Shown here in pieces: positions 59,043 to 63,502 of a DNA stretch of 64,000 bases. The stretch is from SAR92 clade bacterium H231 (GTDB lineage: Bacteria > Pseudomonadota > Gammaproteobacteria > Pseudomonadales > Porticoccaceae). The position numbers were made by a program, and so were the translations under genes. The notes under the pieces are model-generated. The model ran no database searches. It worked only from the letters and a program-made list of their open reading frames with translations, and had not been told where the DNA came from. How positions within the stretch are numbered: the stretch's first letter is position 1; each line of letters begins with the position of its first letter. The stretch spans positions 620,001 to 684,000 of the forward strand of contig JAOALC010000002.1 of NCBI GenBank assembly GCA_025153775.1, written 5' to 3'.

Positions 59043-59816
59043 ATGGACATTGCAACAATTATCGGCCTGGTTGGCGCGCTTGCCGCGATAAATCTGGCGG
59101 TTACAGATCCCACGCCACTGATGAATGCTAACTCCGCGTATCTAGTGGTACTAGGGACCTTTGCGGTGACATTGTTTCGCTCCTCTATGGGTGAATTTTT
59201 AAATATGTTTATCGTGTCGTTGAAAATGTTTCGCTACAAGATGGACAAGCCAGAGGATTTGATTGATCGCCTGGTTGAGCTGGCAGGCATAGCTCGAAAA
59301 GACGGTATGATCGCGCTGGAGAATGAGGAAATTCCCAATCGTTTTCTAGCCAAGGGCATCAGTGCTCTGGTCGACGGCAATGAGGCCGGCTTTATTCGCA
59401 GCTCTCTGGAGCGCGATATGTTTATGACCGCCAGGCGCCATGAGACTGGCCGGGGAACGCTGCAGGCCGCAGGAGATATTGCGCCTTCCATGGGCATGAT
59501 CGGCACATTGATCGGTCTGGTCAATCTGCTTCAAAATATGGCGTCCGACCCCGAGGGCATTGGCCCCGCTATGGCCCTGGCCCTTTTGACCACACTCTAT
59601 GGTTCACTGCTGGCGAACATTGTTTTTATCCCTATCGCAATGAAACTAGAGAACCATGCCAAAAACGAAGAGATGAACAGCCAGCTTATTATTGAGGGAG
59701 TTCTGTTTATCCAGGGTGGCGGTAACCCGCGATTATTGGGTGACCTGTTATCGGCCTTCCTAAACCCCAAGAAAAACAAAAAACGCGCCAATGCTGAGCC
59801 CGCAGCGGCCGAATAG
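59043..59816 (+). CDS. pomA: Flagellar stator protein PomA (MotA family)
   Basis: Ion-channel subunit A of the flagellar motor. Four membrane helices: MDIATIIGLVGALAAI, AYLVVLGTFAVTLF, and the last pair with DIAPSMGMIGTLIGLVNLLQ and ALALLTTLYGSLLANIVF, which contain the conserved Pro/Thr/Gly channel residues. The large cytoplasmic loop has charged residues for rotor contact. The short 257-residue form resembles Na+-type PomA more than E. coli MotA (295). Followed by two motB-like genes. Confidence 0.93.
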   Translation: MDIATIIGLVGALAAINLAVTDPTPLMNANSAYLVVLGTFAVTLFRSSMGEFLNMFIVSLKMFRYKMDKPEDLIDRLVELAGIARKDGMIALENEEIPNRFLAKGISALVDGNEAGFIRSSLERDMFMTARRHETGRGTLQAAGDIAPSMGMIGTLIGLVNLLQNMASDPEGIGPAMALALLTTLYGSLLANIVFIPIAMKLENHAKNEEMNSQLIIEGVLFIQGGGNPRLLGDLLSAFLNPKKNKKRANAEPAAAE

Positions 59817-59919
59817 CAATGGATATGCAGAAAAAATCAGCGGTTTAAACCCATGGGAACTATGCCAGGCATCAATCCTCATCGACTAGCAGCTTACAGA
59901 GCTGCTCTGGTGAGCGCCC

Positions 59920-60972
59920 ATGGCTGATGAAGAGCTGCTGGAAGACGAGAATGAGCTGCCAGAGGACTGCCCAAAATGCAAAAGATTTGCACCGCCATGG
60001 ATGACAACCTTCGCCGATATGGCGACCCTGCTGATGGCCTTTTTTGCACTGCTGTATAACTTTGCGACCATGGATGTGGGAGAGCGCGCCAAGGCCATGG
60101 GCTCTTTGAACGCGGCCTTCGGTGCCACTGTTATTAGTCCTCTGATAGAAATACCCATCTCTACCACCCTTATGGTTTCGGAAGATGCCAGCGACAGCGA
60201 GTCTGATCTAGATCTAAAGAGCCTAAGCTCAGAGGAGCTGGCAGCTCTCAGGGCGGAGGAGACCATGGCATCTCTGCGCGAGAGCCTGGCCAAAGAAATT
60301 AAAGAAGGTTCAGTGGTGCTGCGCAAAGCTGACAGCAAAGTGATTGTCGAGCTGCAGACCTTTTCCAGTCGTGAGCCAGAGTCTACGGGTTTCTATCTGA
60401 CTCAACCTGTTCTGGACGTGTCCGAGAAGGTGCTTGCGGCTCAGGCAGCTACCACCACTGAGATAGAGGTACGCAAGCAGGACCTGGCTGCTCTAGAGCA
60501 AGCCAAAGAACGCCGCCGCGAGGATGCCAAGGCTCAGTATGAAAAAATGACCCAGGATCTTGCCGAGGAAATCGAAGCCGGTGCCGTGGAATTAGTGCTG
60601 CAGGACGAAAACCTGATTGTGCGCCTAGCCAGTCAGGGCTCTTTTGTATCCGGCAGCGCCAATGTGCAGGATGGTTTTAGAGGCCTATTGACCAAGATAG
60701 GCTCAACTTTGTCCCTGTCAGAGGGCCGCATTCGAGTGGAGGGACACACAGATAATGTACCTATTGCTTTCAGTGATCGCTTTACCTCCAACTGGGATCT
60801 CTCCTCAGCTCGCTCCTCTTCCGTGGCCGCAGTGTTGATTCAAGAGGTGGGTCTGAATCAAGAGCGAGTTATTGTAGCTGGCCTAGCAGACTCGCGACCA
60901 CTGGAGAGCAATGATAGTGCTGAGGGTCGATCGCGCAACCGACGTATTGAGGTAATTGTCCGTGGCAAGTAA
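59920..60972 (+). CDS. motB: Flagellar stator MotB/PomB-like protein, copy 1
   Basis: 350 residues. N-terminal CPKC, membrane helix with channel Asp33 (TTFADMATLLMAFFALLYNF), a long charged periplasmic linker, and a C-terminal OmpA-like peptidoglycan-binding domain (VEGHTDNVPIAFSDRF, SNWDLSSARSSSV, NRRIEVIV). Unusual: the module L..EI..G.V...L......VIV.L occurs twice, at about 122-146 (LAKEIKEGSVVLRKADSK) and 213-240 (LAEEIEAGAVELVLQDEN). Typical PomB has only the second. 103 bp behind pomA; the next gene is a paralog. Confidence 0.9.
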   Translation: MADEELLEDENELPEDCPKCKRFAPPWMTTFADMATLLMAFFALLYNFATMDVGERAKAMGSLNAAFGATVISPLIEIPISTTLMVSEDASDSESDLDLKSLSSEELAALRAEETMASLRESLAKEIKEGSVVLRKADSKVIVELQTFSSREPESTGFYLTQPVLDVSEKVLAAQAATTTEIEVRKQDLAALEQAKERRREDAKAQYEKMTQDLAEEIEAGAVELVLQDENLIVRLASQGSFVSGSANVQDGFRGLLTKIGSTLSLSEGRIRVEGHTDNVPIAFSDRFTSNWDLSSARSSSVAAVLIQEVGLNQERVIVAGLADSRPLESNDSAEGRSRNRRIEVIVRGK

Positions 60973-61945
60973 GAAAAAAGAAGATTGCCCGGAGTGCGGG
61001 ACAGGGGCACCTATGTGGATGGCCACCTTTGCCGATATGGCCACACTATTGATGTCCTTTTTTGTGCTTCTTATTGCCTTTGCGGAAATGGAGAAGCAAG
61101 ACTCGGTGATGGCCTCGGAGGGGCAAACCGGCAAAAACCTCGGTGTTCAGGACGAGATTCCCTCAGAAGAGGCGCCGCCGGTTAACGAGGGTGAAGCCGA
61201 AGATGATGCCTTGAAAAAGGCGGACGCGGATACAGACGCAGGCTTTGAAATCGTCAAGGCCGCACTGGCAAAAGAAATTACCGAGGGCAAGGTAGAGGTC
61301 AGCATTAAAGACCAGGAGATTGTTGTAGAAGTAGCTCAAGCGGAGACAGCGGAGCCAGAGGCCAGTGCCAAAGTACTCCAGGAGCAGTTGGAAATCTATG
61401 CCAAGGTCAGAGACGCCCAGACTAAAATTGAGGTCGGCGTCAAAATTGCCCAGGAGGCAGACGATGTGTCTGCGGAACAGCTGGCGCGCGAGGCCATGAT
61501 TGCCGAACAGTATCGACGTATTCGCGAAAACCTCTCCAATGAGATCGAGAAAGAGCTGGTAGAGGTGATCCGCGAAGGTGAAATTATTATTGTGCGGCTC
61601 GCCGAGCAGGGCTCGTTTACCAGTGGTGCAGCAACGCTTCAACCAGGTTTTGGCAAGCTATTGGACAAGGTGGGTGTGTCCCTAAAAGGGGCCGAGGGCC
61701 TTATTACCATTGAAGGGCACACAGATAATGTACCTGTTGCCTTCAGTGAGCGTTTTAGATCTAACTGGGATCTCTCTGCTGCCCGTTCCGCCGCTGTTGC
61801 CGACTACCTGCTTGACTCCGCCTCTCTGGAGGGCGGCAATGTTATGGTCACCGGGTTGGCCGATACCAAGCCAATTATGCCCAATGACACCAAGGAAGGG
61901 CGGGCCAAAAATCGCCGTATTGAGATCGTTATTGACGGCAGCTAA
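60962..61945 (+). CDS. motB: Flagellar stator MotB/PomB-like protein, copy 2
   Basis: About 327 residues from GTG 60962 (9 nt after GAGG; TTG 60956 is the alternative), overlapping the end of copy 1 by 11 bp. N-terminal CPEC, channel Asp25 (ATFADMATLLMSFFVLLIAF), acidic linker, OmpA-like domain (IEGHTDNVPVAFSERF, SNWDLSAARSAAV, NRRIEIVI). It too has the doubled module, at about 102-125 (LAKEITEGKVEVSIKDQE) and 191-218 (LSNEIEKELVEVIREGE). The TM segment is closer to classical PomB than copy 1. Confidence 0.9.
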   Translation: MASKKKEDCPECGTGAPMWMATFADMATLLMSFFVLLIAFAEMEKQDSVMASEGQTGKNLGVQDEIPSEEAPPVNEGEAEDDALKKADADTDAGFEIVKAALAKEITEGKVEVSIKDQEIVVEVAQAETAEPEASAKVLQEQLEIYAKVRDAQTKIEVGVKIAQEADDVSAEQLAREAMIAEQYRRIRENLSNEIEKELVEVIREGEIIIVRLAEQGSFTSGAATLQPGFGKLLDKVGVSLKGAEGLITIEGHTDNVPVAFSERFRSNWDLSAARSAAVADYLLDSASLEGGNVMVTGLADTKPIMPNDTKEGRAKNRRIEIVIDGS

Positions 61946-62753: not shown

Positions 62754-63476
62754 TTACTCCGGGCACTGAGCGTAATTAGTTGCTAGGCATTGATCCACAA
62801 TACCCTGTACAGCACTGATTTCCCGCTCTTCCATCTGCATGGCCGCAACTGAGGTGATACTGATGGCGTCAGTTTTACCATTGTGTTCTGAAAGGGCTGC
62901 CCAGACCATAGCTTTTTGTGGTTCGGGTTCTTCGTCTCCACCCTGAGCAGACTGCAGCATATAGGCATACATAAACTGTGCGTTGGCGTAGGCTCTCTTA
63001 GCGGATTTTAAAAACCAGTCCCGGGCCCTATCGTAATCCGCTTCTCCCCCGTGACCCTGGTGATACATAAGACCCAACATATACTGGGCCTCAATCACAT
63101 CCTGCTGGGCAGCTTTCTCAAACAGGCTAAGTGCCTGGCTATAGTCCTGTTCTGCTCCGATCCCATTGTAGTAGAGCATCCCCACATTATGTTGCGCTGC
63201 TGCCAGACCCTGTTCGCTGGCCTTGAGATACCAGCTTATGGCCTGGTCATAGTCCTGTTTTACCCCCAGACCCTGCTCATAAAAATGACCCACATTATTC
63301 TGTGCCTCTGCGCGACCAGCTTCCGCCAGCGGCAAAAATGCCCGCATAGCTGTTTCATAATGTCCGCGTTTGATCGCCATAATGCCGGCTTCATAGGCGT
63401 CGGCGAAGGATAGTCCTGGGGCCAAAATAGAGATAAGAGAACAGCAGCAAACAATGGTTTTAAGGAGTGGTTTCAC
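62754..63476 (-). CDS. Exported SEL1-repeat (TPR-like) protein
   Basis: About 240 residues from GTG 63476, with AAGGA 8 nt upstream. Signal peptide at 1-26 (LSFADA). Four or more SEL1 repeats at about 45-190: AEAQNNVGHFYEQGLGVKQD, AAAQHNVGMLYYNGIGAEQD, IEAQYMLGLMYHQGHGGEAD, ANAQFMYAYMLQSAQGG. Such repeats act as protein-binding scaffolds. Partner unknown. Ends with two cysteines (QCLATNYAQCPE) that may form a disulfide. 19 bp behind the ClC gene and possibly co-transcribed with it. Confidence 0.88.
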   Translation of the reverse strand: MKPLLKTIVCCCSLISILAPGLSFADAYEAGIMAIKRGHYETAMRAFLPLAEAGRAEAQNNVGHFYEQGLGVKQDYDQAISWYLKASEQGLAAAQHNVGMLYYNGIGAEQDYSQALSLFEKAAQQDVIEAQYMLGLMYHQGHGGEADYDRARDWFLKSAKRAYANAQFMYAYMLQSAQGGDEEPEPQKAMVWAALSEHNGKTDAISITSVAAMQMEEREISAVQGIVDQCLATNYAQCPE

Positions 63477-63502
63477 AGACAAATTCCTTTGTTATTATTT
63501 TA

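Follow-up and report, generated by a model that had tools for sequence, protein, structure and literature searches.

A candidate PomAB-type flagellar stator with one pomA and two tandem pomB genes, each carrying a doubled periplasmic module, in a SAR92 clade bacterium

The stator locus of SAR92 clade bacterium H231 occupies positions 59043-61945 of the window (the whole stretch of DNA that was analysed, 64,000 nucleotides) and consists of one pomA and two adjacent pomB genes, all on the forward strand. pomA (59043..59816) codes for the ring (A) subunit of 257 aa, pomB1 (59920..60972) for a protein of 350 aa (B1), and pomB2 (60962..61945) for a protein of 327 aa (B2), with the 5' end of pomB2 overlapping the 3' end of pomB1 by 11 nt. 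The latter length is counted from the GTG at 60962, which is probably the start codon, with a GAGG at 60949-60952; the TTG at 60956 is a possible alternative. PomA matches the Pfam family MotA_ExbB (95.4 bits), and B1 and B2 each match both MotB_plug and OmpA, in all cases over the cut-offs. Two tandem MotB/PomB genes served by one pomA had been proposed in an earlier sequence-only reading of this DNA, and both features are borne out by the open reading frames and Pfam domains at the locus. Against solved chains, the best matches are Vibrio PomA for PomA (1.1e-65) and Vibrio PomB for B1 (2e-38) and B2 (2e-40). The best NCBIfam matches fall below the cut-offs, at 282.7 of 341 bits for PomA with the PomA model NF006527, and at 225.4 (B1) and 237.4 (B2) of 259 bits with the MotB family NF006508; the proteins are therefore called PomAB-type here on the basis of domains and residues, and not as equivalogs by NCBI's rule. 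A profile search of the same genome returned two MotB_plug and five MotA_ExbB matches, and the four MotA_ExbB stretches other than pomA score best as TolQ or ExbB. Because this genome is 97.8% complete, 59043-61945 is probably its sole stator. Among named relatives, Porticoccaceae UBA2002 (94%) is closest to the window. A promoter and terminator scan gave a signal no higher than in shuffles.

On the minus strand, at 62754..63482, lies a gene for a Sel1-repeat protein of 242 aa (Sel1, 113.8 bits), possibly MotX-like, which is treated as a neighbour and not as part of the stator. A Sel1 protein accompanies the stator genes in 12 of 20 stretches from relatives, representing four families; of the stretches without it, L223 and L230 are not cut by a contig end, whereas most of the remaining six stop at or close to one. 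According to the part of PMC9093738 consulted, MotX is a Sel1-motif protein of the T-ring whose contact with PomB stabilises stators. The MotX-like label is only a lead because the NCBIfam MotX model gives the protein 31.5 of 330 bits, below the cut-off; synteny and the Sel1 repeats make it a possible stator partner like MotX. The profile PF18393, which we take to be MotY, had no match in the same genome, in a search whose controls also gave none. Other ORFs were noted in these regions. A 565-aa ORF on the minus strand, extending from 63503 onward (L232:7504-9201) and starting outside the window, is also present near the stator genes in several relatives, and the corresponding ORF of G450 (L221:923-2626) codes for a CLC chloride channel with CBS domains. 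An OmpA-type ORF of 314 aa (L231:2038-2982) resembles an OmpA porin by eye, and two successive fliS-like ORFs lie upstream of pomA in G227 (L224:1404-2363).

The sequence-only reading had described a segment of the form LxxEIxxGxVxVxxxxxxIxVxL as occurring twice per B protein, and it is indeed present twice in B1 and twice in B2. The repeated unit, however, is about 78 residues long (helix-strand-strand-helix-strand) and not 23, and corresponds to the half of the PomB periplasmic region nearer the N-terminus; the other half, which carries the GHTD, NWDLS and NRR motifs, is not repeated. In B1, profile and model place module 1 (the extra copy) at residues 113-190 (60256..60489) and module 2 (the original copy, i.e., the linker helix and the first half of the OmpA domain) at residues 206-278 (60535..60753), with the Pfam OmpA match at residues 242-341. 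In B2, module 1 was placed by profile at residues 92-166 (61235..61459) and module 2 by Pfam and profile at residues 182-255 (61505..61726). HMM alignment of the two modules found significant similarity in both proteins, with hhalign E values of 4.8e-7 over 35 columns for B1 and 1.1e-5 over 33 columns for B2, each from a single comparison with few effective sequences. A second profile (A2, 80 positions), built from 23 module-1 rows only, matched the single copy in two module-less PomB proteins over positions 2-79 and 4-79 (E of 2.7e-9 and 2.5e-9), and it matched module 2 in five single-PomB genomes over positions 3-79 (E of 1.1e-7 to 4.4e-7 per genome). None of the 1060 shuffled controls for the module-1 profile matched at 1e-3. 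Together, the hhalign comparisons, the A2 matches and the silent shuffles indicate a likeness between modules 1 and 2 beyond chance. Searched against Pfam, module 1 gave no domain over the cut-off. As the earlier reading had it, known PomB carries a single copy: the extra module is absent from the PomB proteins of Vibrio (the solved PomB), Marinobacter and Halopseudomonas.

In the AlphaFold2 model of B1 (mean pLDDT 82.6, 42 sequences), a transmembrane helix that includes Asp33 is predicted at residues 26-50 (59995..60069), and a helix at the plug position is predicted at residues 53-67 (60076..60120), the plug function being assigned from general background and from part of PMC9093738. Further along, the order helix-strand-strand-helix-strand occurs twice. 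The first unit comprises helices 104-122 and 124-128, strands 132-137 and 140-145, helix 162-177 and strand 182-186, and the second comprises helices 189-213 and 215-219, strands 223-228 and 231-236, helix 251-264 and strand 271-276, followed by the remaining OmpA domain. The model refutes the earlier view of a charged helix acting as a spacer between the two motifs, where it has helix 162-177, strand 182-186 and helix 189-213; this stretch is part of the folded unit and not simply a charged helix. Across residues 141 to 220, pLDDT in 10-residue blocks is 81-97, except for 62 at 151-160. When modelled alone, module 1 again gives helix-strand-strand-helix-strand (mean pLDDT 81.9).

Residues 200-349 of B1 align with the Vibrio PomB fold with a Z of 24.3 and an rmsd of 1.4, and a VIA search with full-length B1 gave matches mostly over residues 195-350. 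The best VIA matches of module 1 were YscD (Z 7.6), a designed binder (7.2) and PrgH (7.1), with BonA at 6.1, and at this level (Z under 8) a match may reflect merely a common arrangement; a Foldseek search with module 1 returned nothing at E<=0.001. The periplasmic domains of YscD and PrgH and the BON proteins have the same element order as module 1 of B1, but identity is low, Z stays under 8, and unrelated proteins rank between them. Module 1 is assigned to PomB itself, and not to YscD/PrgH/BON, because of its sequence homology. No claim is made for a ring-building motif (RBM) or a BON domain, given these search results.

Counted on an alignment with Vibrio PomA, residues T158, T185 and T186 are kept in PomA. 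The transmembrane Asp of B2 aligns with D24 of Vibrio PomB, and Asp33 of B1 falls in the same invariant column in both the 12-row and the 42-row alignments. These residues are essential for Na+ conduction or motor function (PMC6677748, consulted in part), and their retention makes Na+ coupling likely; judged from sequence, the stator of the window is probably Na+-driven and PomAB-type. The coupling is less sure because the transmembrane signature is not the DLMSLLMC of Vibrio and Marinobacter PomB: it is mostly DMATLLMA in PomB proteins with module 1 and DMATLLMS in B2 of the window. It was also observed that, with DLMSLLMC in the module-less rows, the signature has the appearance of an ion-site change accompanying the module.

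A change of the plug had been suggested as well, and this holds for part of the group. In the subclade of the window (the window, L228 and L229), B2 has lost recognisable plug sequence, and B1 has a modelled helix at this position. Many B2 rows outside this subclade keep it, so plug loss is not general. Measured by alignment columns in 17 pairs, the transmembrane Asp and module 1 lie 104-107 residues apart in single PomB proteins, B1 and B2 alike, except in the subclade of the window, where the distance is shortened to 87-91 residues in B1 and 72-78 in B2; the parallel shortening is only suggestive because it represents one event on the tree. Elsewhere, the spacing of 104-107 residues is held through a linker of variable sequence.

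Among 80 public loci, all 15 of L098-L112 were taken as having module 1 (L108 weakly). Twelve of these 15 have two tandem PomB proteins, the second one being cut by a contig end in L106, and the other three (L104, L107 and L111) have a single PomB. L108 reached only 2.6e-5 and 8.3e-4 in the search with the initial module-1 profile, no better than the ordinary OmpA halves in L125 and L127, and was kept as a carrier because of its position and its placement in the tree; its better score with A2 is partly by construction, as A2 contains the L108 rows. L113 is a fragment of 104 residues, and in L114-L177 matches to the module-1 profile did not go beyond 2.6e-5, which an ordinary OmpA half also reaches. 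In the order of the window, presumably Pseudomonadales of GTDB, 33 of 390 genomes matched the module-1 profile at 1e-6. Five of them (G016, G091, G119, G128 and G145, best E 1.4e-7 to 4.7e-7) were set aside as module-2 matches, a status that was checked for G119 and G091 and assumed for G016, G128 and G145. The carriers were thus taken as 28, belonging to families f15 (12), f1 (7), f44 (4), f40 (3), f38 (1) and f13 (1). Two module-1 PomB genes are present in 14 carriers (f1, f40 and f44). A MotB_plug search covered 8 of the 12 f15 genomes and the f38 genome and gave one match in each, and in the f13 carrier the contig ends beside the PomB gene. At the level of the class, 3 of 369 genomes matched, including the window and two weak matches (G775 and G830), and in the sample of the phylum the one match among 378 is the window itself. 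We do not claim restriction of module 1 to the order because L104 and L111, whose records are titled betaproteobacterial, may lie outside it. The tandem pair is present in SAR92 clade bacterium H921 (L112), and a single PomB with the module occurs already in the cultivated OM252 strain LSUCC0096 (VIEA01000001.1, G014). The OM252 group has flagellar genes and LSUCC0096 has evidence of a polar flagellum, according to part of PMC8269220.

In a tree of 53 PomB rows, the 18 B2 rows form one clade (support 100/99) and the 19 B1 rows form another (99/96), which also includes L224, a row with a contig end directly behind its PomB gene. The row L100_B1, which contains runs of X, was kept in the tree and left out of the 42-row alignment and of the B1/B2 column comparison. 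Outside both clades are the rows of genomes that have module 1 in a single PomB, five from f15 and one from f38 (L223), and L104 and L111 lie beside B2 with weak support (89/87). Grouping B1 and B2 as one clade without L104 and L111 is neither shown nor rejected (p-AU 0.243), and loss of B1 in these two is possible. Because single-PomB rows with the module (the f15 singles, L104, L111 and L223) fall outside the B1 and B2 clades, the doubling of the module is placed before the duplication of the gene, which was one of two orders of events offered in the sequence-only reading. Most likely, as far as the sequences indicate, the module was doubled first and the gene was duplicated later, once, with both copies kept.

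The other option offered was that the copies were kept in step by gene conversion after a recent duplication, as a shared 18-bp tract seemed to imply. The identical tract does exist, at 60745-60762 and 61718-61735, and the same codon is used at 30 of 77 identical residues of four-fold families, against 22.2 expected from codon use. As a sign of recent exchange the tract does not hold up, since a longest run of at least 18 was reached in 106 of 2000 codon-resampled B1/B2 pairs, which is near chance, and since the tract is absent from the sister genome G295. Moreover, B1 and B2 keep to their own clades across families and share 139 of 324 aligned residues, which argues against copies kept alike. 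Conversion is therefore considered highly improbable.

Flagellar stators are described as five A subunits that enclose two identical B subunits. With one pomA and two B genes, the sequence-only reading had envisaged either a mixed stator or alternative stators, and the indirect evidence leans to the mixed one. Within the genus of the window, 39 of 50 genomes had any match, in 8 of them only weak OmpA-type matches, and 30 of the 31 genomes with stator-type matches hold both B genes, a count in which a contig end cuts one gene in G307, G311, G322 and G329 and one of the two pairs of G327 is partial; the exception, G328, is at a contig edge. As a separate observation, G319 and G327 each have two PomB pairs on different contigs, which may be duplicate stators or mixed bins. 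This co-retention, and the adjacency of the B genes after a single pomA (overlapping in the window), speak against two homodimeric stators on one PomA, PomA5-(B1)2 and PomA5-(B2)2, which would replace each other or coexist at the rotor depending on conditions. Such homodimers would fit the fact that each B is complete, with the transmembrane Asp, the OmpA motifs and thus everything a homodimer needs, which is also the main point against a mixed stator, and they would fit the plug-like sequence kept in many B2. They would fit as well the finding that B1 and B2 are consistently told apart by just one alignment column (at least 75% in each), a result for which we dropped a conserved B1/B2 asymmetry as a candidate. 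In the subclade of the window, a B2 homodimer would be without a recognisable plug and might leak, making B1-B2 pairing the economical reading there. On balance, alternative homodimers appear somewhat unlikely. The loss of plug and linker sequence from B2 in the same subclade might also indicate that one B (perhaps this B2) is no channel subunit of the stator and instead acts as a regulator or decoy with only occasional pairing to B1, or that it is on its way to being lost; as B2 keeps its transmembrane Asp and its motifs for wall binding and persists in several families, this appears improbable.

We infer a heteromeric assembly of B1 and B2. That the locus codes for a PomAB-type stator whose B subunit changed in two steps, with PomA5-B1-B2 as the working form, is in our assessment about evenly balanced. 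The stricter version, an obligate heterodimeric axle PomA5-B1-B2 sharing ion sites, plug and anchors, in which the half-OmpA storey pairs B1 with B2 or links stators, is put forward more tentatively. In the proposed two-step course, the periplasmic region would have gained a copy of its N-terminal half (about 78 residues), placed after the plug/linker and ahead of the original wall-binding domain, and then the whole module-bearing gene would have been duplicated in tandem, both copies being kept together in several families. In the working form, one PomA ring would surround one B1 and one B2, each B supplying its transmembrane Asp together with a module-1 domain and an intact wall-binding domain; the plug role, if any, would fall to B1 in the subclade of the window. 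Module 1 would most likely pair to form a periplasmic neck beneath the wall anchor, which may set the anchor height or dock to a T-ring-like scaffold, perhaps via the neighbouring Sel1 protein.

By sequence and fold, the closest solved relative is the Vibrio PomA/PomB sodium stator (PDB 8bri and 8zyv; periplasmic part 3wpw), whose T158, T185, T186 and D24 are kept in the proteins of the window. The solved complex has one B gene and one module copy, whereas two B genes and two copies per B are found here, and the Vibrio signature DLMSLLMC contrasts with the DMATLLMA of most of this group. Aeromonas resembles the window in having two PomB per cell, but its PomA/PomB and PomA2/PomB2 are two complete, non-exchangeable A/B pairs (PMC4960245, in part), while here one A serves two B. 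No report of a doubled PomB module or of a pomA-pomB-pomB locus was found in titles and abstract openings, with subscription journals mostly outside the search. The AglRQS gliding motor of Myxococcus xanthus is the nearest precedent for a single A gene with two B genes; like the present locus, it combines one MotA/TolQ-like gene with two distinct B-type genes. It differs in that AglQ and AglS are ExbD/TolR proteins (PMC3169522, in part) of a gliding motor, whereas B1 and B2 are MotB/OmpA proteins of a flagellar stator, matching MotB_plug and OmpA, with no ExbD/TolR among the Pfam matches listed. Whether AglQ and AglS form hetero- or homodimers is stated as not known in the part of PMC9389320 consulted, and a two-B stator would bear on that question. 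If true, a natural stator with two long-kept B genes would let the two B positions be altered one at a time, something difficult in a homodimer, and the steps towards it are visible side by side in module-less PomB, the single PomB with the module in LSUCC0096, and the tandem pair of the SAR92 group.
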